Of a DNA stretch of 64,000 nt, positions 1 to 62,108 are shown one piece after another. A program made the position numbers and the translations under genes. This DNA comes from Clostridiales bacterium (GTDB taxonomy: Bacteria > Bacillota > Clostridia > Christensenellales > Pumilibacteraceae), in assembly GCA_022511445.1 (NCBI GenBank), contig JAFLVE010000016.1:1-64000 (forward strand), in the 5' to 3' direction. Under the pieces are notes generated by a model, which was not told the origin of the DNA, did not search any database, and saw nothing but the letters and a program-made list of their open reading frames with translations. Position 1 is the first letter of the stretch. Every line of letters begins with the position of its first letter.

Positions 1-3000
1 ATTGCAAAGTAGATTACGACTATTGCAAATATGCTCGCTACCGCCGCAAGTATGATGTCTATTGTTAGTAGCGTCCTGTCAAAGGCGGGTCCGATTGTAA
101 ACTCGTATCTCGCCTCAAGCGTTTCGTATCCGTCAACTACCACGCGCGCGACAAGTATATAATCACCGGCGGTTGTGGGTTTTTCCTTAAACTCTTTGTC
201 GGGATTGTTCTTGTCTATGTACGTGTACTCGACTTTACCTACCGCCGCTTCGCCCTTAGGATCGGGCGCGGTGTCACTATGCTCTTCCGACCAGTCTTCT
301 ATTGTAGGAGACGTATCGTTTACCCAATTGTTTTTGGACAGCTCTACAATGAACTCCGCCCTACTTGTTATCTCTATGGAATCGGGCGCGGAAGCACGGG
401 CTATGACGTAGTACGAGCCTACCTTCTTGGGCGCCTCGTTGCCGAGGGGCATGTCTGTTTCCGCGTCGTAGAATTCGTAGACGATAGTAATGTTAGGGTA
501 ATTGACCGAAGCGGTCGGCACACCCCAGCCGGGTTTATTCTTATCGCCGAGACGAAGGATATCGGAGATAGCTACCGACTGAGCCCACTTAATCTCGGAA
601 AGCCTTACCTCGAATTCCATCTCGCTCGTAAGATTCTGGCAGTACGTGGCTTCCGCCGTCGCAACAACGACGTACTTACCGGGCTTAGTCGGAATTTCCG
701 TGCCGTCGAGCTCCTCGCGCGTGTCGGCCTCGTAGTACTTATATGTAATCTTACTTTCGAGCGTGGTCGACGCCGTAGGTTTTGCCCAGCTGTTTTTCTC
801 TCCGAGGTAAAGCACGGGCGCGATTGTCACCGACTGAGCCCACTTATTTACGCGGTCGTAAATCGTAAGAATGGTGTAACCCCACTCCAGGTCGTCTCCG
901 TGGTCGGCGGCGGCGACGTTTTCTACGTGCGCGTACATCATGTAAATGCCGGGCGCTTTGGGAATGTAAAACGGTCTTGCGTATTTGCCATCGGAAACGG
1001 TAGTAACGTCGTCGCCCTCACCGAGCGCGTCGCCCGTCTTTTGGTACTGATCGTTGACAAACTCCGCAGGATAGAACTTAAAGTACACCTTACCGCGGGC
1101 GGGCGTACCGGTAGGCATTTTGAACGTGCCCTCGATATTTGCCGTCCAGTCCTCGATGTTAGGCGATTCTACCCAATAGTTTTTCACCTCGAGCGAGCCC
1201 TTAGGGAATACCTGGAATTTCCTGGTGGACGAGGTGCCCTTGTACATGCCGGGCGCCGCCTCTACCGATACGACCATAGTGTACCAGCCGATTTCCGCCG
1301 CTTCAAGGTTGTTTGTCGTGACCGTAGTTGCACCGCTGTTCGCGTCGTATGCCGAGCGGAACCATTCGGCGCCCGACGATTGACTCGTAATGACGATTGT
1401 CGTAACGCCGTACGTCGCGCGGCCCTCGGGCATATTCTCGTCCGGGTTAAAGCCGCCGCTGAACCAGGAAGCAATGTTGGGCTCTACAACCCAAGCGTTG
1501 GCGTCCTCGGTTACGTTAAAGGTGGTTTGTGCGTCGAACGCGGCATAGTTGCCGTTTGCGGCGACGTGCACCTTAAGCGTATACTCGCCGGAGGTAAGAG
1601 CGTTGAGCTTATTCTTTATCTCCGCGTCGACGTAGCCGTTGGAATCGAGAGTAAAGCCCGCAATCTTAAGCGTGTCGGCGGCGTAAACGCTGTACGTAAT
1701 CGTGCCGCCCGAACGCGCCTCTCCTACGAACTTATTGGTGATAAGATAGTTGTTCCAGCTCCAATCGCCTACGCCCGGCTGAATCTTGAACGAGTCGAGA
1801 AGCGCGCCTTCGATTGTGATGTAGAATACGTTTTTGTAGATTTTAGCGCTTTCCTCGTCCGCAAGTATGGGCTTGTAGTTATGGGTCGCGGGATCTGCAA
1901 CGACAAACTCCGCCTTGTAAGTACCCACGTTGACGGGCATGCCGGAAATTGCGCTCCAGGACCCGTTATCGAGCTTTTCGTAATACAAGAACTCGACCGT
2001 GCCGTACAGCGCCTTGGCTTCCGCCGCGACTGTCTTGCCGAACGTCCAGGTGTAGGTTTTAGTATCCTCCGTATAAGTCACGTCGTCGCCGACAAAGCAA
2101 GGCTTGCCGTCCTTTTCCCAACCGTTATCGGCGGTCTCGATTGTAAAGGGAACGCGGGTTGTAATAGTGGCTTGCTCGTCGCCGAGCATAGCCATAAGCT
2201 CCTCCTTAGAGGTTGCTTGGTCTACTATGCCGTTCCAGTTATCGTCGGCGGGAGTTGTGATTATCATGATATAGGAGCCGACGTTAAGCTCGTTTGACAG
2301 GCAGTCGCTTACCTCCTTTTTGCCCTTGTCGAAGGAAGAAGTCGTGCTCGTATCGATTGTTATGTACTTGACGACGGCCTCGCTTCCCGCCTCCACAATC
2401 ATGACGATGACGGTGTTGCCGTAGCGCGGCTTTACGCCGAGCCATTCGATATCCGATCCCCACTTCCAATTATGCGTGACGGAAGAGGTGCCCTTTTCGA
2501 CAAGGGTGTTCTCCGGCGCGGGAGCGGGATGAGTATCGTCGCCGTCGTCCCAGGAGTTGTCGCCCGGCGCTATTATAATCTGAAGCGTTACCGTCGCGCC
2601 GTAGTAATCGAGGGTCTCCTTAAGCGTGATTGCAATTGTGTACGGTCCGCTGGCAAGATTCTTAACACTGACCGCAAGCTCCGCGTTAAGCTTGGAAAGA
2701 CTCTTAATTCCGTTAACGGTGACGGAAGTAATATTGTCGCCGCTTAACGTATACGAAAGCTCGAAGTTGTCGATTTCCGCTCCGTCGCCCACCTCGGTAA
2801 TGTACGTGACGGGTTTAAGAGTTATCGCGTCGACGGTTGTGTTAAGCTCGCCGTCTTTGTTCTTTTGCCACTTGCCGCCGACAACGTTGTTTTGAGGAAG
2901 CTCGGTAAACGCGGCGTTGTATTTAAGGATAGTAAGCGAAAGATTCTTCTCCGCGTTGAGCACGGCGTAGTTGGGCGCTTCCGCGAAGATACGCACCGAA

Positions 3001-6000
3001 TACGTAGCGGGAGTCAATTTCTTGAGCTCCGCCTTAAATTCGGTAAACTCAAGACGGGCGTTGCCTATTTGACCGTTGGTGTCCGCATTGAATATGGTGA
3101 AGTAAACCACGCTGCCGTCGGCCTGAGCCTTGATGTCGCCGATAAGCTCTATCCACTTATCCTCGTCTCCGTCTACCTCGTAGCCCTTTAACACCGTGTA
3201 GTAAACATTGGCGGTATCCTTGGGCGAGTGGTCTTTCACCCATTCGTTTGCCGCGAAGTTGACGGTAAACGTGGTCGTATAGATAGAAACCGCGGCATAC
3301 AAACCTTTTACGCTTTCCGCTACTTGTGCCGAAAGAGTATAGCTGCGCTCGCTTGCATTAAGCTCTCCAAGTTTAGCTTTCACACCTTCTTCGTCAAGGT
3401 TGGTGTAGTTTACATTATTGCCGCTGATTGCGTACTTAATATTGCCGAAGAGCACCTCGCCCGCGGTAAACGCACCCTCGTGCATACCGTAGCTAAAGCT
3501 TGTTACCGAAGGAAGAATAGGCGTGCCGTCGGACGCGGTTTTCCAGCCGTTTTCCGCTTTGCTTATCTGGAAGGTCGCCCATCCGTCGACGCCGCCTAGG
3601 CTCGCGCCGCCCTCCGCCTTGGCGTAGAGATGGTACACCCCGTTATTGGAATTGGGTTTTAAGTATTTAAGAAGCTTGATAACCTTTTCGTCGGTTACGA
3701 CGCCGTCTACAAGCTTGATTGCATTCAAAGCGGCGATATCTTCCGCCTTTATGATAACGTTTTCGGCGCCGTCGGCGTCAAAGTCGCCGAGCGTAAGCGG
3801 TTGTTCAAGCGAATTGCCTTTCATAATAGCAAAGGTTACTTCGCCCTTGCTGCGCGCCGAGCCTTGGAACAGGTTGACTGCGGGGTCGTATCCGCTCCAC
3901 TTCCATCCGATAACGCCGGGCATGGTTACCCATTCGTTTACGCCCGCGCCTATCTCGAACAGATAGTAGCCGACTATTCCGCCGTAGTTACCGTCCTTGT
4001 CGTCGGGAACCTCCGCCTTTAACCAATACTTGCCGGCTTCCGCACCGTGGGTCGTCGCCCACACGACGGACCCTGCGGGACCTTCGGTATTTCCTACTTC
4101 CTTATCCTCGTCGCCGGCCGTGATGTCTGCAAATGTATATTCTACCGTATTGGCGCCGAATCTTGCCTGCGACGCGGGGCGCGCGGTAGAGCTACCGAAC
4201 TTCCAGCCGTCTACGTACGGAGCGAGGCTCCACCCGTTCTTCGCCTTTTTGACATAGAAGTCAAAGGTCTTATCTGCGAGCGCGTCGTAGTTTTCGGTCG
4301 AGCCTACGGACACGGTGATCGTGTACGCGCCCTCCAAAGCGTTACGCGCCTTTAGCTTGCTTTCGAGAACGTCCAAGCTGTTTGCGCTGACTTCCTTAAC
4401 GGACGACTGTTTGTTAAGCTCGTAGTCGATAGTCATCTGCATGGCGAGCTGTTCGCGGCCGTTTGAATCGCGGTAAGTAACGGAAAGCGTGGCGGAATCG
4501 CCTTGCGTGGGTATAGGCAGGGAGATGACCGTATCTATATTGGATACTACGTTATCCCATACCCAGCCGAATCTGTTCGCCCAGATATCCTTTTCGGTCT
4601 GCTCCCACTTGTTAAACTCGCTGAGCTCGCCGAACTTTTTGCCTACCGAAAGCGCGGAGTCTTCCTGCCAGCTGTTTTTCGCCTTGCTTATAACAAGCCT
4701 TACGGAGTCGACAAGCGAGGTGTAGGTATCGTCCTCATTCACGATTGCGGTAAGTACGTACGTCTTGGCGCCGTAAACCCTTACGTGCTCGTTGAGGTCG
4801 TCCACCTTCCTTCCGTCGACGGTAAACTCTACCGTGCCGTACAGAGGCTTGAACTTACCGAATATATCGGACAGATCGTCGCCGAAGCTTCTGTTGATAT
4901 CCGTATCGTCATCGGCGGGCGGCGTGCTTGTGCCGTTACCCAGCTTTGACACCCATTCGTTAACGGACTTTTCGATTTTGACGATAACCGAGTATGTAAG
5001 CTCTTGGTGATTGTCGTCGCCGCTTATAAACGCCCTAAGCGTATAGTCGCCGGGATTTTGCTTCTTGAGCGCGGTAATCATCTCCTCCCACGAATCGTAA
5101 GGCGTAGGACGAGCGCCGCTGTCCGCAAGCGTGTATTGAATGCCCTTGCCCCAATCGCCGTAGTTCTTGTCGTCGTTTACTACCGGCTTTTTGGGAGTCT
5201 TTTCGGTCGGGGGATTTTCTCTCTCGTTAAAGTACCAGACGTACTGCAAGCCGTCGGTTAGCGCGGTGGCGGCGTTCCAGGTCGCAGTCTGCTTGCTTAC
5301 CTGCAGGAATCTTATCATAGGCTCGGGCGCCGTGTAATCGCCCGTTGCCGCAATAGTCACGGTCAAAGTGTAGTTGCCCGCGCCAATCGTTTTGGTAAGA
5401 TAGGCGATTAACTCGTCGAAAGCCTGCTCGTTGGGAGACTTACCGTCATGCTCGTTGTAGCGCCCCGCCTCGAACTTTGCTTTTTCATCGCCGTTTTGAG
5501 TTAACGAGTACACAATGGTATTTTCGCCGTACAGGGCTTCGGGCATGGTAAGAAGCGAAGAAGCAAACGAACCCCACTCCCAGTTTACGCTTCCGGGAGC
5601 GAACGAAGCGGTCCATTCGTTTTTGTACTGAGATAGCGTTATCGTGCAGGTCGAGAACAGCTCCACATAGTCGGCGTTATACAAGCCAAGCGCCGTGTCG
5701 AGAAGAGAGCTCGGGGTTACGTTTCTATAGTAGCCGCCGCCGATATAAGCGTTTACGGTAAACGTGCCGTTACGGATTAAGGCAAGCTCTTTTTTGAGAT
5801 CCTCGACGTCGATAGTATATTTGCCGTAGTCGGTGCCCGCTTGATAAATATCGAAGCGCAAAAGGTCGAAGGGACTTCCGCCGCCGATATTGACGTACCG
5901 CACGTCCGACGTGGGAATGGGGAATACGGATATATTCACGCTGCCGTTGCCGATATAGTCCTCGAGTCCCTTTTTGCCGGTACGCGCATTTTCCGACCAT

Positions 6001-9000
6001 TCGGTAGGTATAAGGTTGATAATTATTCTGCACGAGCTGGAAACGCCGCTGTAGTTGGTTGCCGAGTCTATAGTAAAGTTAAGCGTATGCTCGCCCGCGG
6101 AAAGATTTATAAGCCTGTCGTTTAATGCGTCCGCGTCGCTGCAAGCGGCGCCGTCAAGCGTAATAATAAGCTTGTCGTTACCAGCTTTCGCTTTGGGAAT
6201 AACAACCGAAATCGTCTGCTTGCGGAGATACGTCCAGGTGTAGCCGTCGTCCCAATCGACGAGGGTATCGCCTACGTACGAATCTATCCATTCGTTTTGA
6301 ATACTGCTTATATATAGATAGCATTGCTTTTCCGTTAAGCCCTCGTAGTTAGCCGTTTCCAAAACCTTGTACGTTACGATGTAGTTGGTGGCGATAGCGT
6401 TAAGGGAATTGATAAACTTGCCGAACTTAACGGTACCGTTAAGGCTGTCGTAATCGTAAGTACCGCCGTCGGTATCGCTAACTCTTATATCGATAGGAGC
6501 GTCGTAGTCCTTTACGGAGATATTCAGGTTGTCGTCGACTATGCTTCCGAAGGTGCCCGTGTATCTTTCCTCGAGCGTTTCGTTCCACTGCGGCTTTGCG
6601 CGCAAAACGTTAACGACAAGCGTGTAGGAAAGCGACGAGTAGCTCTTGTCGCCCGGAACATAGTCGGCAACGATAGTATACGCGCCCGCAACGTACTGTC
6701 CGTCGTCTGCGGTAAGCCTGCTCTTCAGCCAGGACACCACTTCGTCGCGGGTGCCCTTTTCGCCGGAGCGAGTCACTTCTTCCTCTAAATAGCTGTTCCT
6801 ATAAGTCAGGGTGTACTTAGTCACGCCGTCATCTTTGCCGACGGGGATATCCAGTCCGTCGAACGACGCGCCCATATCGTCTGCGTTGTTTACGTAATTG
6901 AACTCGACCGTTTTGGAAGTCGCATCGCCCAGCTTATCCTGGTTTTTCCACAAGCTCTTTGTGCCGGTAATGATAAGCTCGGTCTTAACCTTAAGTCCTT
7001 TATAGTTATCCGTCTCCGCAACGACGGTATAGAATACGTACGCCCCGTTATCGTTGGCGCCGAGACTCTTAATCCACTCTATAAGCTCCGCAACGGAGGT
7101 TACGGGAACGCCGTTGTGCTTGAGGGCGTCCTCGCCGCTCTCGTCGTAGAATACAACGTCGCCGTGCTTTGCGGAAGGCGGAGTTGCGTTTTGTATCGCG
7201 TTTACGATATTGTCCTTTTCGGAATACTGAGCGGAGTATCTGTCGCCGAGCTTGTTGTACAGCTCGTTATCCGCCTGCTTTACCGTGACGGTGTATACCG
7301 TTTCAAACTCGTTGTAGTTGATAAGGTCGTAGCCGCTGCCCGCCGCGGCGGAAACGGTAATTACGTACCTGCCCGCGTTGACGCGAGGCTCTTCGCTTGT
7401 CAGGTATTTAACAAGCTCGCCAAACTCGGTGTAAGGCGAAGAGGACGCACCGCCGTCGGTGCTTAAGTGGTAAACGAGCGTTACGGCGTTGTTGCTAAGG
7501 TCATGCGCCGCGGGCCTTATAAGCTTACCGCTCTTGACCGAAGCGTCGTCGTCCCATACCCACTCTACGTCGGCGGGAGTTTTTCCGTCGTCCCAAACGA
7601 AGTCCGCCTTGGCGATATGTACGGTGACCAAACGCTGAACGGTAACGTAGTTGACGCATTCCACCTTGATTGTTACTTGGTAGTCGCCTGCGTTTTGCTC
7701 GCGGAGCTTGGCGAGCATATCGCCGAATTTTTTGTACGAGTCTATGCCCGTAATGGAGTAAGTGAATTCGATTTTCTCCTTATCGCTGTCCAAAACGGTT
7801 TTGACTTCGATATCTTTGAAGTCCTTCGAGGTGCTCGGACCCCAGACCCACTCTACTCTACCGTCGGGCTCGGTTACAACCTCGAACTCGGCGAAGTCGA
7901 CCTTGATAAGCGTCGATTTTGTAAGCGAGGTGTAGTCGGCGGTTTCGGCAACCGCAACGGTTATCTTGTACTCGGTATCGCTCGCCGCAAGCGCTTTAAG
8001 CGCTTTGAGAAGATTTTGAAGGTCGCTTGCGTTTTTCACGCCGCCCGTAACGCTTACGGAAATAGGGTCGCCGACGGGCGCGTTAGTGCCGGATACGACA
8101 ATGGTGTAAGTAAGACCGTTACTCATATCCAACGCCGCGGCGTTATAGAGCTTGGAGGTTTCGAGGCTGTCCTTACCCCAGGTCCACTCCAGTCTGTCTT
8201 CCGGCTCGTTGCCGTTGTCCCAGTCGTTTGCATGTCTCGAGACGGTGAACGGCACGGTAATGCTAAGCGCCTTGTAATTGGTGTTTTCGGGCGCGGTCGC
8301 AATCATTATATAATTGCCGGGGTGAGCCTTGGTAAGATCGGTCACTTCCTCGCCGTCCTGCGTCCAAGCGCCGTTTACGAACTGCGCGGGATAGTACTTG
8401 TAGGTTATCTCGCCCGTATCGACGGTGGCGGTCGAGGTTGTAAGCTTTCCTGTGGTCTTGCCGTCGTACACCCAGCCTTCTATCGAGGGCGGGTTGCCCT
8501 TCCAAGAGTTTTCCGCCTTTTCTACGGCAAAGCGAACGTTTTGCGTAACCGCCTCGAAGTTGTTGTTCTCGTCGTCCGCCGCCCTTGCCAAAAGGTTGTA
8601 GCTGCCTGCGTCGAGGTTGTTGAGCTTATTCAAAAGCTCTTCCGCGGTAAGCCCGATATAGCCCGTTACGTCCGTATCGATATTGCCGCCCGCGCCTACG
8701 GTCTGAACGGTGTACTTGACAACGCCGAAGTTGGCCTCGCCGCCCGTGAACAGAGAAGCGTTAAAGCTGCCGTACACCCAGCCGCTTATCTGCGTGTTCT
8801 TGTTGCTCTTCCAAGCGTTTGACGCAGTCGATATAACAAACTCGGTGCAAGAATACAGCTCGGCGTAATCGGTAGTGCCGCGCACATACGCTACAAAGTA
8901 ATAGGTATCGCAGTCGAGGCTGTTAAGGTAAGCCGTGACTGTCATCTGAACGCTACCCACGCTTACCGTGTCGGTGATATTGTTAAACGTTACGCCGCTG

Positions 9001-12000
9001 CCGCTCTCTTTTGCTTCGAGGAATGCCTGCGAGGAATCGATTCTTGCGGTAAAGATGCCGTAATCGACCTGTTTATTGTCCAAAGGATAGCTCGGAACGC
9101 CCGCCGCAAAGTTGGACGACGCTTCAAACTGCGAATACTTAAACGAGGACAGCCTCGGTGAATTCGTCCAGGAATTGGCGCGCTGCGATACGTTAAACGT
9201 TATGGGATATTCGAGGTCCTCGTAGTTATCGGTACCTTCGAGCGTTACCGTTAACGTATACGTGCCGAACTTCAGTCCGTTAAAGAAGGAGACAAGGCTC
9301 GACACTTGGTCGGAGGTAAACGGACTGCCATGCGCTACTCCGCCGCTAGTCAGCGTGTAGGTAATCTTTTTGGACGGGTCCTCGTCGAACGCCGCAACGC
9401 CCGCGGTGAAGTTGCCCACGGCAAAGTTGCTGTACACCCAACCCGTCATGCCCGGAGTGGTTGTCCAGCGGTTGTCCGCCTTAGATACGACTACCGTCGT
9501 TTCGTAGGTAAGCTCTTCGTAGTTGTCCGTACCCTCGAGTTCCGCCGTGAGAATGTAGCTCGCGACCTTTAATGCGGTAAGGTATTGTTTAAGCTCGGTT
9601 GTCCCGATGTCGGACGCCTTGAACGTCTTCAATAGCTGTCCGGCATGGTTGTCGTCGCCCTCTACGCTGTAAAGCTTATAGACAACGTCGCCGCCGCCGG
9701 GGTGCTTGGAAACGCCTGCGCGGAATAGATTCGTCGTAAAGCCGCGGTACGCCCAGCCAGTAAGAACGGGCATGGTCGTCCAGGAGTTGGCGCTTTTAGT
9801 AATGCCGAACGAAATATCGTAAGTAAACTCGTTGTAGTTGTCGTCGCCCGCAACGGAAATGCCGACGGTGTAGTTGCCGACGCCCAAACCGTTGAGCTTA
9901 TTCGCAAGATCGACCGTGTTCGCGTAGAAGGTAAGTACGACGTTCTTGCTTTCGTCCTCGGTTTTATACACCTCGTACTTAACGCCGTTTACGCCGCCGA
10001 ATACGGGCACGCCTGCGATAAAGTCGGTCGAGGCATAGTTGCCGTACGTCCAGCCCGTTATTCTCGGCGTAGTAGTCCAGGAGTTGGACGCCTTGGAAAC
10101 CTTAAAGGAAATTTCGTACTTAAAGTCGTTATAATTAACGCCGTCGCCGTTAAGGGTTATATCTATCGTGTAGTCGCCGACGCCCAAACCGTTGAGCTTT
10201 GCCTTAAGCTCCTCGGTTATACTGCCCGAAGTAAAGGTTATCTCGGTGCCGCGCACCTTGTAAACAACCTCGCTTTCCGCTCCGAGCACGGGCACGCCCG
10301 CGGTAAAGCCGGACTCGGTAAAGCTGCCGTACACCCAACCCACCATTCTCGGCGTGGTCTTCCAAGCGTTGTCCGCCTTGGATACGACTACCGTCGTTTC
10401 GTAGCTCAAGTCGGCATAGTTTTTATCGCCCTCGAGGAACGCGTAAAGCGTGTATGATTTAGGCGGCAAATTATTCAGTTTATTAAACAGCGTCTCTCCC
10501 GCCAAATCCGCCGCGGACGTCCATTCGGCAATAGGCGATTTGCCTTCCCCTTTTGCGCCGTCGTAAAGCTCGTATTTTATCTGCTTTCCTGCGGCGACGT
10601 ATTCGGCAACGCCCGTGCGGAACAAGGCTGTGTTAAAGCCGCGGTACGCCCAACCGGTAAGACCGGGCGTAGTAGTCCAGGAGTTGGACTTGCTCGATAC
10701 GGTAAACGTTACGGTGTCGGTAAAAGCCGGATAGCCGGTGCCCGCCGCGATAGATATATCTATCGTGTAGCTGCCGACCGACAGCTTGTTAAGCTCCGCC
10801 GCAACGGATTGAATGGTGACGTCTCCGCCGAACTCTATGTTTTGATTGCGCACGACGTACTTAACCGCTTTCTCGCCGCCGAAAATAGGCACGCCCGCGG
10901 TAAAGTTACTCACGTCAAAGCCGTCGTATATCCAGCCCAACATATTAGGCTTGGTTACCCAACCGTTGGACGCTTGGCTTACGACTACCGTGGTGGTGTA
11001 CACCAAGTCCTCGTAGTTATCGGTGCCCTCGAGCTTAACGTAGAAGGTGTACGACTTGGGCGCCAACTGCTTAAGCTTATTAACAAGCTCCTCGCCGGAC
11101 ATATCCTCCGCGAAGAACGGACCTACCGCCTTTTCCGCGCTCTTGCCCGCCTCGGTGTCTGGATTTACGTTTTCGCCGACGTAGAGCGTGTACGTAATTT
11201 TTTTGTTATTCTTGTCCTCGTCGAAATTTGCGGCGCCCGCGCGGAAATTGGCGGCGGTAAAGCTGCCGAAGTCCCAGCCCGTCATGCCCGGAGTGGTCGT
11301 CCAGGTGTTAGTCGCCTTCGACACCACTACCGTCATGGAATAATCGAGGTCGCCGTAATCGCCGGTGCCTTCGAGAAGCGCGTAGAAGGTGTACCTGCCC
11401 GCGCCGAGCTTGTTATTGATTTCGTCGCCGCTCGGCATGGTAGATTGAGTGAACGGACCGAAAACAATCTTCGCGCTCGAATCCGCGGCGGAGGGATCGA
11501 CGTTATCGCCGCTGTAAATCGTGTATTTTACGTTTTCCTGCTTGCCGTATGCGGGTATGCCGGCGCGGAAGTTTTCCGCGGTGTAGCCCTTATACGGACC
11601 GCCGGTAAGAGCGGGGGTGGTCGTCCAGCGGTTGCTTATGGATATAACGTTAAAGGTGGAATAGCGCGCGTCGGGCGTCAAGAACTCGCTCACGTTGCCG
11701 TCCGCTCTCGGCGCAATGTAGCTGCCGAGGTAGTACGTTCCCGCGGGGAGCGCCTTTAACACCTTTGCTATGGTATTGTTTCCGTCGTCGACTATCTTGT
11801 TGTCCTTAATGGTAAAGTACGCGCCGTAAGAGGTGTCGTCGATACCCGCTTGGGGCGTTTCGCTTATCTTCACCCATGTATAAGTCCCGTTTTCCTCGTC
11901 CTTCGTGCCTATGCGGAAATATATATCCGCGCCGGTAAACTTGAGACCGTATCTTATTACGTTGACGTTGATATTAAATCCGTCGTACGCCCAGGAGGAA

Positions 12001-15000
12001 ATGGAGGGCGCGACAGTCCAATCGTTTACCGCGGGAACGATATCGAAGTAGACGAAAAGCTTGGTGCCGTCGTCGGAAATCTTAAAGTATTTCTCGTAGA
12101 ACGCTTTAATCTCTTGCTCGGTCGGAATCCCGTCGGACACTATACCGTCCGTGGGCAAGCCTTTTATACTCCAGCGCGCAAGCACGGGATCGTTAAGCGT
12201 AAGCGTAACCGAAGCGCCCTTTCTTACATTGATATAATCCTTTTTGGGCGTGCTCTCCCCGAGCGCGTCGTCAAACGAGGAACGGTAGTAGCGGCTGTAC
12301 GGAACCTCGGTATACACGGGCGAGCCGGTATACGTAACGTTTTGGAAGTATTGAGGATGCTCCGTTTCGACGATATATTCGTAGATGTCAAGGAGCTTCA
12401 TCTCGGTGTAAACGGTTGTTCTGAAGCCGTGAAGCGTTCTGTCGGACTCGCTCGCGCCGCCTACCGTAACGTAGTTTTTGGCTTCTATGCAGTAGTAAAC
12501 GGTGTACGTGCTTGTGGAAACAAGGGACTTTCTCATCGTTTCGTAGTTGACGTACAAAGCGCTTCCCGAGCCCTCGAGGTTATACGTAAACAAAACCTCG
12601 CTCGCATAATAATCGGACTTTGCTTTGTCGGTTGCCCAATAACCCGTACTGGCATTTATATCGCCGTTTCGCACGCTCTCGAGCGCCGCTTTTTGCGCGT
12701 CTATGCTGTCGTGCAGTTTTTCGGCATACTCGTTGGTGCCCTCGACAACCAAGGGATAAGCGTTAACCCACTTATCTATTTCCTTTTGAGAGTCGGGCTC
12801 GGGCGTGACCAAAGCGCCGCGGAGCGTTTCGTGAATGCTCTTTAATGTGCCGCCGTCGAAGGGCTTGGGCAAAACGTTAATGGTATACGTTGCGCCCACC
12901 GCGCCGTACGATTTGTCCGTGCCGTCTTCCTTTACCGAAACGGCGCTGCCGTGAAGGACAAGCGTGTACGTTCCGGCGGGCATGGAGGAATTTATGTAAT
13001 AAGGCAAGCGGCTTACAAGCTTATCGTTCGCCTTGGAGGGTTTGCCGTCATCGCCCAATACGTAGACGTTTTCGCCCTGGGTTATAATCTCGGCGTTTTT
13101 GCCGTCGACTGGCGCATACGATAAATCGAATGTGATTGTGCCTACGTCGTTACCGTACTTAAGCACGGGAGTTGCAACCGAAATGCCGTCGGTGTAAGTA
13201 AAGGTGGCGTTTGCAAGCGGCGAGTACGAAGTATCGCTGTCCTCGTGCCCTTCCTCTACAAACATGTTCGTCTGCATGACGATATACCACCGCTTTGTTA
13301 TACGGAAGGAATAGTCGCCCTTGCCCGCAACGGTAAGTCCCCTTACCGAATCGGACATATCGTTGTAATTGGTATCTTCGTTATCGCCGTAATAGAATAT
13401 ATAGTTGGTTTGATTGACAACGCCGGTGGTGTACGGCACCTGAACGACGAACGTTGCGGTGTAAGAGCCGGAGTTTACAAACGAAAGTCCGTTTCTCGAC
13501 AGAATGTCGTAGTGCGGATTGGTTATCGTGGAAGTGCCGCCGTCCGCGCTCGGCTTTTCGCCCACAAGCTTTATCGTGATGTTGGGGTTTTCCTTGTTCT
13601 CGCCGTTGTAGAAGGCGTAGGCGTTGGTAACCTCTTTTATATCGGGCTCCTCGTAGCTGTCTCCCTTTTGGGAAAGATACCAGCCCTCGTTGTAGCCGTA
13701 CAGCGTGGTTTTTTCGCCGAGAAGAAGATTGGAGTCGTCGTCGCCGTAGGCAAATGCGGGAACGTCGTCCAAGCTCATAAGGTTTATCTTGGCGCGGTCT
13801 ACAACAACGTCCGCGGCAAAATACTCGGGATACTTATCGAGGAATTCTTCCGACCACTCGCCCCACTTGGAAGCAAGCATTATATTAAACTTGTAAGAGC
13901 CGGCGTTTTTAACGTAGGTCGGTTTGGAAGGAGTTTGATTGTCGGGGAAAAGGAAGCTCGCAAGCGACACGGCGTAGTCGTTGCCGAGTCCGAGCACCGT
14001 CATATAATCTATATACTCCGTAGCGCCGTCGCCTATCTTTTTGGTTACGTTTCCGGAGAAGCTGTACTCCTTATCGTAAGTAAAGTGTGCGCCGTCCTCC
14101 GTGCTGTCGTAGGTGCCGTTGCTGTCGAAAGTCTTATTAAAGATATTTTTCGGCCTTGCGATATTTTTGGTGTAAAGGTCGATTTTTGTTGTGGAAGATC
14201 CGAGGGTAATCGTGCCTTCGTACGAAGCTTTTTTCTCGGCGGTATAAGCGTCGCTACCGTACCAGACGGTAGAGCTCATATTGGACAGAAGGGGCGACGT
14301 ATGTTTGTTCGATTCATCACCTACTTCCCATTTACCGTCCCACTGCTTAACGTTATTATACGTATATCCCGTCAGCCTCTTGGTATAGGTAAATTGTTTA
14401 TCGGTAGCCGTAAACTCGGGGTTTTCCACGTAGTCGGTATCGTTAAAGAAGCGGGTCGCCATATCGCTGTATCCGCCTTTAATCGAAACGCTGTAATCGG
14501 GGTCCTCGTTATCTACGTGCGCTATTATAGGTATTTGGTAGTGCACGTTACCCGTCGGCCACGGGATATTACGGTGATTTGTTTCGTACTTCTTGTAAAG
14601 AGCGTTATCCTCAAAAACAACGTGACGGGTACCTACCGTTCCGAAAGCGTTGGCGGCGATAGTAAAGTAGTCCGTTGAGGAATAAGAGCCGTCGGCGCCC
14701 TTCTTTTCATGGAAATATAACCACTGCACCAAGGTGCTGTCGGAATTGCCGGCAAAGGCACTGGCGCCGATTGTGGTTGCGTACGTTTCGAAATATTCCA
14801 CGTGAGAGCCGTTAAACGCAGACGTGCCTATTGCGGTACAAGAGGCGGGAGTTATCGCCCTTCTGCACCAAGTGCCGTTCGCAAAGTTATCGGCTATATC
14901 GTAAGTAACGTTTGCGCCTGCGGTAAACGGATTTTTGTATTTATTTGCGTCGCAGTCGAGATAATCGTATCTTATTCCCTTTCTGCGGTCGCTATTCTCG

Positions 15001-16559
15001 TTAAAATCACCGCTGTCGGGGAATATAAAAAGTGAATTAGGCGCTTCGCCCGTTTCGCCCGAAAAACCGACGGCCGACCACCGTTCGGAAGTACCCGAAC
15101 CGGTGCGAGTAAACAGAAAACCTCTCCGTCCGTTATCCAAAACCCCGTTTTCGGGCGCACCCCCAAACACGTACAAGTCGTTATTTGTCGTAGGGAGACC
15201 GAGATTATTCAGCGAGGCCGCTCCTTCTTCTCTTTCGACGTGCAACAGTTTATCGCAACCTATAAACGGTTTCCTATTATCGGTATTTGTATTGTCGTTA
15301 TATTGGGGCAGCGTTGTCAAACTACTCGGAATGGATATGTGCACCAATTGACCGAATTGATAGTAAGCGGCTACGCCTACCGACGTAACGGTTTTCGGAA
15401 TATTGGTATCTACTACTTGCGTGCATTTAAAGAATGCGTAGTGACCGATTTTGGTTACGCCGTCGGGCAAAATCATAAAGCGCATATTGTCGCAGCCCTG
15501 GAATGCGCTCTTTCCGATATCGAGCTCCATTGTTCTATTGGCACCGGGTGAAGGATTGGACACCTCCGCAACCGAAGCTAAATACGTGCCGCTTGCTATT
15601 TCTTTAAGCTGGCTGCCTTCGGGGAAGAAAACGCCGGCAAGACGCTCGCGCGGTTGCCAAAAGTAAGGCTCCGAGTCTCTGCCCAGCCTGTTTGTAATAA
15701 AGCAACCGAAATCGGTATACTTGGGGATACCGTTGCCGGTGCGCTTTACCTCTTGACCGCCGGTACTTATGTTGGTTTGACTGTTATAAATCGCGGTCAA
15801 AGTCCCGTTTACTGTCGCCACAAACGCGGCGCTGCCCTGACCGACCATGGTAATATTCTTAGGTACGATTAAAGCATATCTTACCGACGTGCCAAAGTCC
15901 TGACTGACGCTGGCAAACTGACAATAAATACCCGTAGGCGAAGCGACATCGGGATTTAGGGAGCCGGAGATAATCTCGCCGTTTTCCGCTATTTTAGTAT
16001 TGATGACGTTTTTGTCCGCATCGTAACTCGGATCCACCGACCGTATATCGGGCTTCCATCCGAAAAGAGTACGTCCGCCGTACGTCGTGTTTGCATCGGT
16101 ATATATGTAGTTTTCAACGTCGAAATACTGTTCCGCCGGGATACCGTAAATATTGTTGGTGTAAATCTTGTTTCCGTCCGAATCATAAACAAACGTGCCG
16201 TCCGCATTTCTTACGGCGTGCGCGTCATCCTGATAATATTGGAACTTTCCGTTAGAAACAAGCTGATCCTCGGCGTTTCTGTAAAACAGGTCGTTACGGT
16301 CGATTTCACCGTCGCCGTTTCTGTCTACAACGTCGATAGGACCCAACACGAAATCCGCGGGGTAACGTTCCATAAGGTCGAGTATCGTAACGCGTTTGCT
16401 CTCGGCGTCTTCCGCATTAAGCGGCTTTTTATTCATTCCGAATAAATCCGACTCGGAACCGAAAATCATTCCGACGCCTATAGATAACGCTAAGAGGAGC
16501 GCGACGGCTAAGGATAGCGCCGCAATAACAATTCTCTTGACGAAATTAGTCTTTTCCAT
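1..16559 (-). CDS. Giant secreted/surface repeat protein, 3' end truncated by window edge (>=5,519 aa); N-terminal signal peptide, EF-hand-like loop, BspA-like LRR region, about 38 Ig/MBG-like repeats, C-terminal TM helix at the edge
   Basis: ATG at 16559-16557 (MEKTNFVKRIVIAALSLAVALLLALSIGVGMIF...) preceded by GGAGG. No minus-strand ORF in the supplied track within 1-16559 lies in this frame (top coordinate = 2 mod 3), as expected if the frame has no internal stop. Hand translation at many points and at the left edge (...AGDYILVARVVVDGYETLEARYEFTIGPAFDRTLLTIDIILAAVASIFAIVVIYFA) is in the same frame. Confidence 0.93.
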   Translation of the reverse strand, partial: MEKTNFVKRIVIAALSLAVALLLALSIGVGMIFGSESDLFGMNKKPLNAEDAESKRVTILDLMERYPADFVLGPIDVVDRNGDGEIDRNDLFYRNAEDQLVSNGKFQYYQDDAHAVRNADGTFVYDSDGNKIYTNNIYGIPAEQYFDVENYIYTDANTTYGGRTLFGWKPDIRSVDPSYDADKNVINTKIAENGEIISGSLNPDVASPTGIYCQFASVSQDFGTSVRYALIVPKNITMVGQGSAAFVATVNGTLTAIYNSQTNISTGGQEVKRTGNGIPKYTDFGCFITNRLGRDSEPYFWQPRERLAGVFFPEGSQLKEIASGTYLASVAEVSNPSPGANRTMELDIGKSAFQGCDNMRFMILPDGVTKIGHYAFFKCTQVVDTNIPKTVTSVGVAAYYQFGQLVHISIPSSLTTLPQYNDNTNTDNRKPFIGCDKLLHVEREEGAASLNNLGLPTTNNDLYVFGGAPENGVLDNGRRGFLFTRTGSGTSERWSAVGFSGETGEAPNSLFIFPDSGDFNENSDRRKGIRYDYLDCDANKYKNPFTAGANVTYDIADNFANGTWCRRAITPASCTAIGTSAFNGSHVEYFETYATTIGASAFAGNSDSTLVQWLYFHEKKGADGSYSSTDYFTIAANAFGTVGTRHVVFEDNALYKKYETNHRNIPWPTGNVHYQIPIIAHVDNEDPDYSVSIKGGYSDMATRFFNDTDYVENPEFTATDKQFTYTKRLTGYTYNNVKQWDGKWEVGDESNKHTSPLLSNMSSTVWYGSDAYTAEKKASYEGTITLGSSTTKIDLYTKNIARPKNIFNKTFDSNGTYDSTEDGAHFTYDKEYSFSGNVTKKIGDGATEYIDYMTVLGLGNDYAVSLASFLFPDNQTPSKPTYVKNAGSYKFNIMLASKWGEWSEEFLDKYPEYFAADVVVDRAKINLMSLDDVPAFAYGDDDSNLLLGEKTTLYGYNEGWYLSQKGDSYEEPDIKEVTNAYAFYNGENKENPNITIKLVGEKPSADGGTSTITNPHYDILSRNGLSFVNSGSYTATFVVQVPYTTGVVNQTNYIFYYGDNEDTNYNDMSDSVRGLTVAGKGDYSFRITKRWYIVMQTNMFVEEGHEDSDTSYSPLANATFTYTDGISVATPVLKYGNDVGTITFDLSYAPVDGKNAEIITQGENVYVLGDDGKPSKANDKLVSRLPYYINSSMPAGTYTLVLHGSAVSVKEDGTDKSYGAVGATYTINVLPKPFDGGTLKSIHETLRGALVTPEPDSQKEIDKWVNAYPLVVEGTNEYAEKLHDSIDAQKAALESVRNGDINASTGYWATDKAKSDYYASEVLFTYNLEGSGSALYVNYETMRKSLVSTSTYTVYYCIEAKNYVTVGGASESDRTLHGFRTTVYTEMKLLDIYEYIVETEHPQYFQNVTYTGSPVYTEVPYSRYYRSSFDDALGESTPKKDYINVRKGASVTLTLNDPVLARWSIKGLPTDGIVSDGIPTEQEIKAFYEKYFKISDDGTKLFVYFDIVPAVNDWTVAPSISSWAYDGFNINVNVIRYGLKFTGADIYFRIGTKDEENGTYTWVKISETPQAGIDDTSYGAYFTIKDNKIVDDGNNTIAKVLKALPAGTYYLGSYIAPRADGNVSEFLTPDARYSTFNVISISNRWTTTPALTGGPYKGYTAENFRAGIPAYGKQENVKYTIYSGDNVDPSAADSSAKIVFGPFTQSTMPSGDEINNKLGAGRYTFYALLEGTGDYGDLDYSMTVVVSKATNTWTTTPGMTGWDFGSFTAANFRAGAANFDEDKNNKKITYTLYVGENVNPDTEAGKSAEKAVGPFFAEDMSGEELVNKLKQLAPKSYTFYVKLEGTDNYEDLVYTTTVVVSQASNGWVTKPNMLGWIYDGFDVSNFTAGVPIFGGEKAVKYVVRNQNIEFGGDVTIQSVAAELNKLSVGSYTIDISIAAGTGYPAFTDTVTFTVSSKSNSWTTTPGLTGWAYRGFNTALFRTGVAEYVAAGKQIKYELYDGAKGEGKSPIAEWTSAADLAGETLFNKLNNLPPKSYTLYAFLEGDKNYADLSYETTVVVSKADNAWKTTPRMVGWVYGSFTESGFTAGVPVLGAESEVVYKVRGTEITFTSGSITEELKAKLNGLGVGDYTIDITLNGDGVNYNDFKYEISFKVSKASNSWTTTPRITGWTYGNYASTDFIAGVPVFGGVNGVKYEVYKTEDESKNVVLTFYANTVDLANKLNGLGVGNYTVGISVAGDDNYNEFTYDISFGITKSANSWTTMPVLTGWAYRGFTTNLFRAGVSKHPGGGDVVYKLYSVEGDDNHAGQLLKTFKASDIGTTELKQYLTALKVASYILTAELEGTDNYEELTYETTVVVSKADNRWTTTPGMTGWVYSNFAVGNFTAGVAAFDEDPSKKITYTLTSGGVAHGSPFTSDQVSSLVSFFNGLKFGTYTLTVTLEGTDNYEDLEYPITFNVSQRANSWTNSPRLSSFKYSQFEASSNFAAGVPSYPLDNKQVDYGIFTARIDSSQAFLEAKESGSGVTFNNITDTVSVGSVQMTVTAYLNSLDCDTYYFVAYVRGTTDYAELYSCTEFVISTASNAWKSNKNTQISGWVYGSFNASLFTGGEANFGVVKYTVQTVGAGGNIDTDVTGYIGLTAEELLNKLNNLDAGSYNLLARAADDENNNFEAVTQNVRFAVEKAENSWKGNPPSIEGWVYDGKTTGKLTTSTATVDTGEITYKYYPAQFVNGAWTQDGEEVTDLTKAHPGNYIMIATAPENTNYKALSITVPFTVSRHANDWDNGNEPEDRLEWTWGKDSLETSKLYNAAALDMSNGLTYTIVVSGTNAPVGDPISVSVTGGVKNASDLQNLLKALKALAASDTEYKITVAVAETADYTSLTKSTLIKVDFAEFEVVTEPDGRVEWVWGPSTSKDFKDIEVKTVLDSDKEKIEFTYSITGIDSYKKFGDMLAKLREQNAGDYQVTIKVECVNYVTVQRLVTVHIAKADFVWDDGKTPADVEWVWDDDASVKSGKLIRPAAHDLSNNAVTLVYHLSTDGGASSSPYTEFGELVKYLTSEEPRVNAGRYVITVSAAAGSGYDLINYNEFETVYTVTVKQADNELYNKLGDRYSAQYSEKDNIVNAIQNATPPSAKHGDVVFYDESGEDALKHNGVPVTSVAELIEWIKSLGANDNGAYVFYTVVAETDNYKGLKVKTELIITGTKSLWKNQDKLGDATSKTVEFNYVNNADDMGASFDGLDIPVGKDDGVTKYTLTYRNSYLEEEVTRSGEKGTRDEVVSWLKSRLTADDGQYVAGAYTIVADYVPGDKSYSSLSYTLVVNVLRAKPQWNETLEERYTGTFGSIVDDNLNISVKDYDAPIDIRVSDTDGGTYDYDSLNGTVKFGKFINSLNAIATNYIVTYKVLETANYEGLTEKQCYLYISSIQNEWIDSYVGDTLVDWDDGYTWTYLRKQTISVVIPKAKAGNDKLIITLDGAACSDADALNDRLINLSAGEHTLNFTIDSATNYSGVSSSCRIIINLIPTEWSENARTGKKGLEDYIGNGSVNISVFPIPTSDVRYVNIGGGSPFDLLRFDIYQAGTDYGKYTIDVEDLKKELALIRNGTFTVNAYIGGGYYRNVTPSSLLDTALGLYNADYVELFSTCTITLSQYKNEWTASFAPGSVNWEWGSFASSLLTMPEALYGENTIVYSLTQNGDEKAKFEAGRYNEHDGKSPNEQAFDELIAYLTKTIGAGNYTLTVTIAATGDYTAPEPMIRFLQVSKQTATWNAATALTDGLQYVWYFNERENPPTEKTPKKPVVNDDKNYGDWGKGIQYTLADSGARPTPYDSWEEMITALKKQNPGDYTLRAFISGDDNHQELTYSVIVKIEKSVNEWVSKLGNGTSTPPADDDTDINRSFGDDLSDIFGKFKPLYGTVEFTVDGRKVDDLNEHVRVYGAKTYVLTAIVNEDDTYTSLVDSVRLVISKAKNSWQEDSALSVGKKFGELSEFNKWEQTEKDIWANRFGWVWDNVVSNIDTVISLPIPTQGDSATLSVTYRDSNGREQLAMQMTIDYELNKQSSVKEVSANSLDVLESKLKARNALEGAYTITVSVGSTENYDALADKTFDFYVKKAKNGWSLAPYVDGWKFGSSTARPASQARFGANTVEYTFADITAGDEDKEVGNTEGPAGSVVWATTHGAEAGKYWLKAEVPDDKDGNYGGIVGYYLFEIGAGVNEWVTMPGVIGWKWSGYDPAVNLFQGSARSKGEVTFAIMKGNSLEQPLTLGDFDADGAENVIIKAEDIAALNAIKLVDGVVTDEKVIKLLKYLKPNSNNGVYHLYAKAEGGASLGGVDGWATFQISKAENGWKTASDGTPILPSVTSFSYGMHEGAFTAGEVLFGNIKYAISGNNVNYTNLDEEGVKAKLGELNASERSYTLSAQVAESVKGLYAAVSIYTTTFTVNFAANEWVKDHSPKDTANVYYTVLKGYEVDGDEDKWIELIGDIKAQADGSVVYFTIFNADTNGQIGNARLEFTEFKAELKKLTPATYSVRIFAEAPNYAVLNAEKNLSLTILKYNAAFTELPQNNVVGGKWQKNKDGELNTTVDAITLKPVTYITEVGDGAEIDNFELSYTLSGDNITSVTVNGIKSLSKLNAELAVSVKNLASGPYTIAITLKETLDYYGATVTLQIIIAPGDNSWDDGDDTHPAPAPENTLVEKGTSSVTHNWKWGSDIEWLGVKPRYGNTVIVMIVEAGSEAVVKYITIDTSTTSSFDKGKKEVSDCLSNELNVGSYIMIITTPADDNWNGIVDQATSKEELMAMLGDEQATITTRVPFTIETADNGWEKDGKPCFVGDDVTYTEDTKTYTWTFGKTVAAEAKALYGTVEFLYYEKLDNGSWSAISGMPVNVGTYKAEFVVADPATHNYKPILADEESAKIYKNVFYITIEGALLDSFKIQPGVGDWSWNNYLITNKFVGEARSGGTITYSVYAADTLKIAGFTLDSNGYVDAEIKNKLNALTSGEYTLKVHVAANGNYAAFDAQTTFNVTEDANAWVVEPNIASWFSGGFNPDENMPEGRATYGVTTIVITSQSSGAEWFRSAYDANSGATTVTTNNLEAAEIGWYTMVVSVEAAPGMYKGTSSTRKFQVFPKGSLEVKNYWVESPNIEDWTANIEGTFKMPTGTPARGKVYFKFYPAEFVNDQYQKTGDALGEGDDVTTVSDGKYARPFYIPKAPGIYMMYAHVENVAAADHGDDLEWGYTILTIYDRVNKWAQSVTIAPVLYLGEKNSWAKPTASTTLESKITYKYYEADTREELDGTEIPTKPGKYVVVATAEATYCQNLTSEMEFEVRLSEIKWAQSVAISDILRLGDKNKPGWGVPTASVNYPNITIVYEFYDAETDMPLGNEAPKKVGSYYVIARASAPDSIEITSRAEFIVELSKNNWVNDTSPTIEDWSEEHSDTAPDPKGEAAVGKVEYTYIDKNNPDKEFKEKPTTAGDYILVARVVVDGYETLEARYEFTIGPAFDRTLLTIDIILAAVASIFAIVVIYFA

Positions 16560-16698
16560 AATCTGCCTCCAAAAGTAACTTCGACTTAGTAGCCACCGTC
16601 GAAAACAGCCGAACGGGTCATATATATATTCCACGCCGGTATAGAAACTTGCTTACGGTAATTATTGTATGTCCGTAGCAAAAAATATTGTGCTATAT

Positions 16699-16727
16699 AT
16701 TATATAAGCCGTTAATACACGTGTCAA
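16699..16727 (-). promoter_or_regulatory. Consensus sigma-A type promoter for the giant gene
   Basis: Minus strand TTGACA (16727-16722), 17 nt spacer, TATAAT (16704-16699); about 130 nt upstream of the ATG. Confidence 0.85.
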
Positions 16728-59294: not shown

Positions 59295-60371
59295 TTATTC
59301 CTCGGCGCCGTCCGACTCCGACGGCTCGACGGGCTTTTCGCTCCTGCCGCGGTTATGACGGTCGCGTCCGCCACGTCTTTTCCCGCCCTTTCTCTCGTCC
59401 TTGGGGATAATAACCACAAAGCGGTACGGCTCCTTGCCCTCGGACGCCGTGGTTACTCTGTCGTCGTCCGTCAGCGCGTTGTGAACGGTGCGGCGGTCTA
59501 TGCGCTCCATAGCGTCGAGCTTAATGCGCCTGCCCTTATTTACCGCCTCGTCCGCACGGCGGTGCGCCATTGCGGTGAGCGACGCGGCGCGGCGGCCTCG
59601 GTAGCCGTTGCAGTCCACCGTTACGTTTACACGCGTTTTTTCGGCGCGAGCGCCCGTCTCGGCAAGATAGGAAAGCGCCGAAAGCGTTTCGCCGTGACGG
59701 CCTATTATGAGCGAATCGTCGCCCGCGGGAGCGTCTATATTGATAAGCTCGGGATCGGACTCGTCCTGCTTCACCTCCGCGGTAAAGCCCATTAACGCAA
59801 CGACCTCCTTTATAAAGCCGCAAGCTTTATTAAGCGCCTCGATCTCCTCCTCGCGCGTAGGTTTTTCGACCTTTTTGACCTTATCACCCTTTTCGACATT
59901 CTCCTCTTTTTCGGCGTTTTCGGGTTTTGAAGGCTTTTCGACCTTTTCCGTCTTTGCGGGTTTTTCGGGTTTGTCCGCTTTTTTCGCAGGCTTTTGCGCC
60001 GTAGCCTTTTCGGGCTTTTCGGCTTTATCGGTCTTTACGGGCTTTTCCGATTTCTCTGCCTTTTCGGGTTTTTCGGGCTTTTCCGTTTTTTCGACCTTAT
60101 CGGATTTTTCCGTCTTTATGGGTTTTTCCGCTTTTTCGGGCTTTTCGGCAGGGGGCTCAACCTTTTTTTCGGGCTCTTCCTTTTTTACTTCGGGCTCCTC
60201 TTTTTCGAGTGTAAGTCGAACCTTTGCTTTACGGAGAAATCCGCCCGCGTCCACAACCTCGACGTTAACCTCGTCGAGCGTTGCGTTTAGGGCGGCAAGC
60301 CCTTCGTTTATGGCGTCGTCCACCTTTTTGGCGACGACGAGTACCGAGTACAAATCTCTTTCGGTTATCAC
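59295..60371 (-). CDS. jag: Jag/KhpB RNA-binding protein (Jag_N-KH-R3H) with long KPEK-rich linker
   Basis: N-terminal Jag_N-like; KH segment INIDAPAGDDSLIIGRHGETLSALSYLAE; R3H segment RRIKLDAMERIDRRTVHNAL; downstream of yidC. Confidence 0.92.
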   Translation of the reverse strand: MITERDLYSVLVVAKKVDDAINEGLAALNATLDEVNVEVVDAGGFLRKAKVRLTLEKEEPEVKKEEPEKKVEPPAEKPEKAEKPIKTEKSDKVEKTEKPEKPEKAEKSEKPVKTDKAEKPEKATAQKPAKKADKPEKPAKTEKVEKPSKPENAEKEENVEKGDKVKKVEKPTREEEIEALNKACGFIKEVVALMGFTAEVKQDESDPELINIDAPAGDDSLIIGRHGETLSALSYLAETGARAEKTRVNVTVDCNGYRGRRAASLTAMAHRRADEAVNKGRRIKLDAMERIDRRTVHNALTDDDRVTTASEGKEPYRFVVIIPKDERKGGKRRGGRDRHNRGRSEKPVEPSESDGAEE

Positions 60372-60387
60372 GTTGTTATCTCCTTAA

Positions 60388-61836
60388 CTACTTCTTTTTG
60401 CCGCCGTCTCTCATATCGATATTCATGAGCTCGTTGGGATCGGGGCGGCCGCTACGCTTGACTGCGCCTGCTGATTTTTTGCCCGTCTTGCTTTTTTCTT
60501 TTTTCTCGGCGGGCGTGGGCGGAGTCTCCTTTACGGGCTTCGCGCCGGCATTGGGGTTGGCGCCTTTTACATAGTGAATGATAGGCGAATCGTTATACGA
60601 GGTTATTCCCGTGCGGGTGCTGCCCGTAGCGATTCCGTAGTGGCGTTTTGTGCGGCGGCGCTCGGAAAGCTTAATTATTCCCGTAAACAGCACGTTTAGT
60701 AGCAACGACGTCGCGCTGTTAACCGCCATGTACAGCGTGAATATCGACGCGTATTGCAATGAGAAGAAAAGCATAAGCGCCGGCATCATGAACATCATAA
60801 CCTTCATGCTCGTCGCAAAGCCGCCCTTTTCGTTGGTCTGCCCCGCGCGCTTTTGCTGCAAAGACGAAATGAACTGCGATGCAACCGATAAAAGCAATAC
60901 GAGTATGGGGAGCACGAGGTAGCCGTTTACCTTTCTGTGCGTGTTTTCGGAAGACAGGAGCTTGCCCATAACCTTGTTGTACATTGTGGGGTCGCTTCCG
61001 TCCGCTATGAGGATAGCAAGCTGTGCGTCGGTAAGTCCGCTCACCGCCTCCGTGTTGTACTTTCTGTTCTTAATCGAATCGTAGAACTTTTTGTAATCGA
61101 GTATCGCCTGATCGTTCCAAGGCACGTCTGGCGCCCAGATATTTTCTATCCACAAGAATTTGGCTTGCTGCGGTTTTTTGTAATCGAAAGAGTGATCCTT
61201 GTTAAGCTCCTCGATAAACTTTTCGGCAAAGTCGTCGGATAGGTCGTACTTTTCTTTAAGCTCGCCGTTAAGCCATTCCTCGGTTATTCCGTCGTAGTAA
61301 AGCCTGACGACAACGTCCTGACCGACTTCCTTTGCAAGCGTATCTCGAGCCTCTTCGCCGTGAGAGTCCACAACCACCGTTTCCGCCGCGGTGTATCCGT
61401 CGTACAGCGCAACGTACTGCTTAAAGGTCATGTACGAGGCGATTGTGTACATCGACTGCCAGAGCGTAATAAATACGACAAGGGTGACTATCATGGGAAT
61501 ACAGGACGAAAAATAGCTGTAGCCTTCCTTTCGGTTAAGCTCCATCTGCGCGCGCGAAAACGCCTGCTTGTCGTTACCGTATTGCTTTTGGAGCTTTTCC
61601 ATAGTCGGCTTTAACCGCTCGGTTATAATCTGATTTTTCCGCATTTTGTAGCGCTGGAAAAAGTCTAGCGGCGAAAGGACAATCTTTAACAGCACGGTAA
61701 ATACGACGACTCGCCAGCCGTAATCCGCAATAAACGAAAATACGTTTAGTATGAGTAAATGCCACGGCTTGCTCGGCGCCACAATCGTGGGGGCAACCGC
61801 GCTGAAAAATGACATTACCGAATTTAAAAGAGCCAT
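60388..61836 (-). CDS. yidC: Membrane protein insertase YidC/Oxa1
   Basis: VFTVLLKIVLSPLDFFQRYKMRKNQIITERLKPTMEKLQKQYGNDKQAFSRAQMEL; start trimmed to MALLNSVMS. Confidence 0.95.
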   Translation of the reverse strand: MALLNSVMSFFSAVAPTIVAPSKPWHLLILNVFSFIADYGWRVVVFTVLLKIVLSPLDFFQRYKMRKNQIITERLKPTMEKLQKQYGNDKQAFSRAQMELNRKEGYSYFSSCIPMIVTLVVFITLWQSMYTIASYMTFKQYVALYDGYTAAETVVVDSHGEEARDTLAKEVGQDVVVRLYYDGITEEWLNGELKEKYDLSDDFAEKFIEELNKDHSFDYKKPQQAKFLWIENIWAPDVPWNDQAILDYKKFYDSIKNRKYNTEAVSGLTDAQLAILIADGSDPTMYNKVMGKLLSSENTHRKVNGYLVLPILVLLLSVASQFISSLQQKRAGQTNEKGGFATSMKVMMFMMPALMLFFSLQYASIFTLYMAVNSATSLLLNVLFTGIIKLSERRRTKRHYGIATGSTRTGITSYNDSPIIHYVKGANPNAGAKPVKETPPTPAEKKEKSKTGKKSAGAVKRSGRPDPNELMNIDMRDGGKKK

Positions 61837-62108
61837 TTCATATCTCCATGAGGGTTGTCGGGCACGGGATCGAATCCGCCCGATTTCCAGGGCACGCACC
61901 TAAGCAGGCGTTTTGTGCCGAGAAATATGCCTCGAATTACACCGAACTTTTTTATGGCATCCACCATGTACGTGGAGCAGCTCGGCGTGTAAATACATAC
62001 GTCCGGCGTTAAGGGCGAAATGCACTTTTTGTAAAAATACACAAGCCCCAAAAACAGCCACCTGAATGTGATTATGCTTATGAGAATGTTTTTCGTACGC
62101 TTCTTCAT
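61824..62108 (-). CDS. yidD: Membrane protein insertion efficiency factor YidD
   Basis: YKKCISPLTPDVCIYTPSCSTYMVDAIKKFGVIRGIFLGTKRLLRCVPWKSGGFDPVPDN. Confidence 0.96.
   Translation of the reverse strand: MKKRTKNILISIITFRWLFLGLVYFYKKCISPLTPDVCIYTPSCSTYMVDAIKKFGVIRGIFLGTKRLLRCVPWKSGGFDPVPDNPHGDMKWLF

Follow-up and report, generated by a model that had tools for sequence, protein, structure and literature searches.

The 64,000-nucleotide stretch analysed here (the window; G000:C108:1-64000) carries at its left edge a gene for a giant surface protein, which is best explained as an adhesin-like stalk: a rod of Ig-like domains bearing an LRR head, anchored by a transmembrane (TM) helix and tethered, or served in signalling, by a partner protein with a cytoplasmic domain. 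This explanation is held with moderate confidence. On this view, the gene is genuine, has a strong consensus promoter and would specify a very large fibrillar protein on the surface of an uncultured, monoderm Clostridia bacterium. Sec would export the chain, and a single C-terminal TM helix, followed by a short basic tail in the cytoplasm, would keep it in the cytoplasmic membrane. The rod of about 40 Ig-like domains would pass through the wall and display the N-terminal LRR-bearing head, which most likely binds host, diet or microbial surfaces. The partner most likely pairs with the giant through the conserved TM helix and tail and, most likely again, tethers it to the cytoplasm or signals to the cytoplasm.

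From the ATG at 16559 on the minus strand to the left edge, the frame runs for 5,519 codons with 0 stops, as the original prediction of a stop-less giant open reading frame (ORF) had it; an in-frame stop was looked for along the whole of 1 to 16559. In the same stretch, the two other minus frames contain 266 and 232 stops. The ORF tool calls the gene at 3..16634 with its 3ʹ end open, and the product has a computed mass of 606 kDa, in line with the roughly 600 kDa foreseen, and a pI of 4.6. The gene thus has the property by which huge bacterial surface proteins are recognized, namely a single open frame of more than 5,000 codons with real coding character. Its features are collected in Table 1.

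Table 1. Features of the giant gene in the window and of related loci.
Feature	Position	Strand	Basis or remark
Giant surface-protein gene	3..16559	-	5,519 codons visible; 3ʹ end beyond contig
Sigma-A type promoter, TTGACA-N17-TATAAT	16699..16727	-	Exact consensus; read upstream of ATG 16559
Ribosome-binding site, GGAGG	16566..16570	-	6 nt before ATG 16559; read directly
N-terminal hydrophobic export signal, aa 10-28	16476..16532	-	Hydropathy
N-terminal non-repeat region	13320..16475	-	45-50% identity in four other genomes of the genus
BspA-type LRR_5 segment, aa 348-420	15300..15518	-	Pfam PF13306, E 3.1e-18
Ig-like array, ~40 domains of ~95-125 aa, aa 1512-5492	84..12026	-	Profile search and predicted fold
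C-terminal TM helix LTIDIILAAVASIFAIVVIYFA, aa 5498-5516	3..68	-	Hydropathy; conserved in relatives
77 nt exactly identical to C1 paralogue	1..77	-	Matches C1:25567-25643; diverges at base 78
Exact promoters of other giants	L006:12389 (C1 42389), L075:13130, L083:1335, L084:4714		
Exact promoters of other giants, continued	L085:4611, L076:19827, L077:16555		
Orphan partner gene, contig C52 of the window genome	L073:622-1497	-	Own promoter; no adjacent giant

Exact consensus promoters number three in the window and none in shuffled sequence. Each of the eight giants with a known 5ʹ end is preceded by a promoter of the exact form TTGACA-N16-18-TATAAT, as is the orphan partner gene on C52. The exactness of these promoters points to strong, constitutive expression of the giants.

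Only two segments of the giant are strongly hydrophobic, aa 10-28 and aa 5498-5516, and as judged by hydropathy they provide an export signal and a membrane-retention segment. Both had been anticipated, the first as a signal peptide and the second as a hydrophobic helix at the visible C-terminus. An N-terminal export signal, a C-terminal TM helix and then a basic tail, which is seen in a paralogue, suggest a type I topology; the giant appears to be a type I membrane protein exported by Sec. Within the first 1,080 residues there is a single LRR_5 segment, which scores 66.4 bits against a cut-off of 27.7.

Much of the remaining chain consists of repeats. With a profile made from nothing but the paralogue's repeats, 34 domains were detected in the window giant, and 0 domains in 10 shuffles and in 10 other window proteins. 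Because the window giant had seeded the profile used to choose those paralogue repeats, it is the shuffles and other proteins that serve as the real control. An AlphaFold2 model of a two-unit stretch, comprising neighbouring repeats, has a pLDDT of 90.3, and Foldseek matches it to cadherin, SraP, InlK and Sap domains (probability 0.97-1.00, E down to 7e-6). The repeats, of about 100 aa, are thus predicted to fold as Ig/cadherin-like beta-sandwiches. The repeat array of the original prediction is not one of near-identical tandem copies; it consists of about 40 strongly diverged Ig-like domains. No Pfam family scored above threshold for the repeats, the best being Big_3_5 (E 0.0067, in 2/17 repeats), and naming them from Pfam or PDB sequence searches was given up, as these returned sub-threshold matches only.

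The manner of anchoring was considered from several sides. The giant has no C-terminal LPXTG motif; the loose pattern occurs only as LPTTN at aa 455 and FPDSG at aa 513, far from the C-terminus, and is absent from the paralogue. Sortase (PF04203) gave no match in the window genome while controls were positive, although at 92% completeness of this genome a sortase gene could have been missed. Omp85, sought in the genome as a test for a diderm envelope, was not found. Taken together, the lack of a C-terminal LPXTG, of a sortase and of Omp85 makes TM anchoring in a monoderm cell the simplest reading.

Adhesion is suggested by this architecture, and Ig-like stalks occur too in S-layer-associated and glycan-binding proteins. 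The giant could instead be a surface scaffold, its rod forming a coat or setting the spacing between cells, its LRR head incidental and its partner clamping the TM tail as an anchor. Two giants of ~5.5k aa in one genome, both with exact promoters, do suggest abundant structural proteins, and the Foldseek matches extend to the S-layer protein Sap and to glycan-binding Ig-like domains. Moreover, the paralogue has no LRR region, its start lying close to the repeat part that the two giants share. However, Pfam searches found no SLH or other wall-binding domain in the giant, and anchoring by a single TM helix makes a self-assembling lattice less likely. The LRR-head region is also conserved: in four further genomes of the genus, its orthologues are 45-50% identical. 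A purely scaffolding role is regarded as unlikely, and the adhesin-like stalk is preferred.

The stalk would not act by itself. The original prediction did not include the LRR-bearing N-terminal region, the genome's second full-length giant or the partner gene that adjoins giants in relatives, and of these the partner gene is the more unusual. Among 61 genomes searched, the giant's tail was found in 14 (the window genome included), mostly of the same genus, and G000, G004, G013 and G015 each have one LRR-head giant and a second giant elsewhere. At all 16 related loci that could be tested, meaning those with a strong tail match and sequence beyond the match, the gene that follows starts where the giant stops, no more than ~20 nt from the tail match; several of the pairs overlap as TAATG. 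The partner protein encoded there has 290-385 aa and is made up of an N-terminal TM helix, an acidic linker and a conserved cytoplasmic domain of ~150 aa, whose family is present in 35 of the 61 genomes. In two other genera, the domain is found in cis, after the TM helix of a giant (G026:C27, 5,218 aa; G027:C58, 5,335 aa); the G027 giant lacks Ig-like repeats of the window giant's type. Conserved adjacency and natural fusion are good evidence that giant and partner share a joint function, and the two proteins may well be in direct contact. Since the window giant's own partner would lie off the contig, its presence is deduced from the relatives' loci: a partner gene probably adjoins the giant and was lost past the contig end. 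Partners do not always need a neighbouring giant, as indicated by the orphan on C52 with its own promoter. A further locus, L074:3-2633 (-), encodes at least 877 aa with an N-terminal TM helix, and its open end enters the partner domain at the contig end.

The partner's cytoplasmic domain has no match in Pfam, NCBIfam or PDB sequences, and the attempt to name it from these sources was dropped. Its model is confident (pLDDT 88), and the most credible solved neighbours given by Foldseek are YdhG/DUF1801 and YjbR proteins, with probabilities of 0.92, 0.89 and 0.77 but weak scores: an E of 0.035 beside the highest probability, and a TM-score of at most 0.5. No sequence-profile match to YdhG/DUF1801 or YjbR was found. 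A viral origin of the partner was also considered and set aside, as a scan of IMG/VR for close relatives of the domain confirmed none in viral contigs.

The cytoplasmic domain might alternatively serve biogenesis only, recruiting ribosomes, chaperones or Sec for co-translational export of the 600-kDa chain and lying idle afterwards. The TAATG overlap suggests translational coupling, and the cytoplasmic part of the cis giants ends in a uL15-like domain (PF00828, E ~1e-11) that occupies the C-terminal 100 aa of L076:4141-19797 (-) and L077:327-16334 (-), which are two cis giants of the other genera; no uL15-like domain, however, is present in the partners of the window genus. In the same vein, the 1,013-aa product of L042:8798-11839 (+) contains the partner domain in triplicate, fused to a SipW-like signal peptidase region; this SipW match, however, is below the family cut-off. 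Moreover, a partner translated after the giant in the operon would come late for a co-translational role. Confinement of the domain to biogenesis is therefore considered improbable. The neighbours of the L042 fusion are small exported proteins that appear TasA-like by eye.

That the open frame is an assembly artefact or a chance-open pseudogene remnant is extremely improbable: although the MAG (1.86 Mb) is in 118 contigs and the locus sits at the end of one of them, the frame has no stops, its codon usage correlates with that of other window genes at 0.94 (0.28 and 0.46 in the shifted frames), mismatches to the G004 orthologue fall mostly at third codon positions (0.35/0.30/0.60 by position), the longest exact direct repeat inside the coding sequence is 24 nt, and a complete paralogue and orthologues in relatives' separately assembled genomes exist. 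TRF found no tandem repeats in the giant gene, and this, together with the 24-nt limit on exact repeats, makes a short-read artefact implausible for the array; on the available sequence evidence, the array is not plausibly an artefact of assembly. Two long ORFs lie antisense within the gene, at 279-2297 (+; 672 aa) and 13245-14678 (+; 477 aa), and are probably shadows of the giant's codon usage and not genes. Elsewhere in the window, adjoining YidC- and Jag-like genes were recognized by eye at 59295-61899 (-), the Jag-like protein having a long KPEK-rich linker. Such YidC/Jag neighbours are found near the replication origin in many Firmicutes.

The left edge of the window is also the end of contig C108, and the true end of the giant was expected to lie just past it. 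This is borne out by the same genome, which holds a complete paralogous giant of 5,563 aa on contig C1. The paralogue has the same TM helix and tail as would be expected of the window giant, and its C-terminus reads LLTIDIILAAVASIFAIVVIYFAIRRYREH, followed by a stop. Since IRRYREH and the stop come directly after that TM helix in the paralogue, the window giant is very probably short of these 7 aa plus stop, which would give a full length of about 5,526 aa. The 77 nt that are identical between the two giants (Table 1) are probably the assembly-branch k-mer that ends C108; an exact 77-nt match with a break at base 78 fits a de Bruijn assembler with k = 77 at a branch. A similar break is seen in relative G011, in which contig C33, with the giant, and contig C16, with the partner, have an exact end overlap of 55 nt. 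Contig-end overlaps were tested for a subset of the genome's contigs. Contig C52 was considered as the continuation past the window and rejected, since the partner gene on it is preceded not by a giant but by an upstream region and promoter of its own.

The 3ʹ end of the giant and the partner gene may also move together. In G015, the 3ʹ ends of two giants share a 1,214-bp block at 99.4% identity (L019:315-1527, L033:314-1527), which spans the terminator, the whole partner gene and about the last nine codons of the giant. Upstream of the block, the two giants have diverged and show no such identity. This looks like recent gene conversion or transfer of a cassette. Three further genomes have two giants each, and there the pairs are ~77% identical and have no such block; the exact 77-nt match in the window genome would fit a similar shared block. 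A bolder extension of the adhesin-like stalk, offered tentatively and thought rather less likely than not to hold in full, is that giant and partner form a hitherto unrecognized envelope-spanning device of uncultured Clostridia. In such a device, the very long Ig-like rod would connect to a new, sensing or load-bearing cytoplasmic domain, either in cis or, by pairing of TM helices, in trans. Recombination between loci would keep the cassette near-identical, giving varied exteriors an interior in common.

Giant surface proteins are usually listed by length, and their link to the cell interior is little understood. A second conserved gene and natural fusions point to a defined inner partner and thereby to a testable unit. 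The findings also suggest why such genes appear truncated in MAGs: near-identical copies of tail and partner may break short-read contigs, leaving a truncation exactly at the giant's end.

Bacterial surface proteins of huge size form a recognized group (PMC11573180). Among Firmicutes, well-studied giants are Giant1-5 of Apilactobacillus kunkeei, with 3,000-8,000 aa (PMC12863079). Like the window giant as predicted here, these are extracellular proteins of a small-genome Firmicute with a signal peptide, long diverged internal repeats, a conserved C-terminus and evolution by recombination (PMC12863079). However, most have beta-solenoid heads, and their repeats are largely helical, their C-terminal domains are DUF5776/SH3b-like and they have no TM helix (PMC12863079), whereas the window giant combines an LRR head, Ig-like repeats and a C-terminal TM helix, to which its relatives add a coupled partner. 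With BspA-type LRR proteins (PF13306), the giant shares the one LRR_5 segment above the Pfam cut-off in its N-terminal region; unlike them, it devotes only ~70 of 5,519 residues to LRR, and most of the remainder consists of Ig-like sequence without a Pfam match. Fibrillar adhesins with Ig-like stalks share an N-terminal binding-type domain, a beta-sandwich stalk and a membrane- or wall-proximal C-terminus. In Gram-positive bacteria, such adhesins are typically LPXTG/sortase-anchored, whereas the window giant has no LPXTG near its C-terminus and no sortase was detected in its genome. The partner domain bears a possible, remote resemblance to YdhG/DUF1801 and YjbR in its helix - beta-sheet - helix order, but with no E-value below 0.001, a TM-score of 0.5 or less and no match in sequence. 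Within a partial coverage of titles and abstracts on giant surface proteins and on Christensenellales/Clostridia adhesins, no description of a giant/partner pair was found. Giant adhesins of bacteria have been described before; what appears to be new is the conserved giant/partner module.
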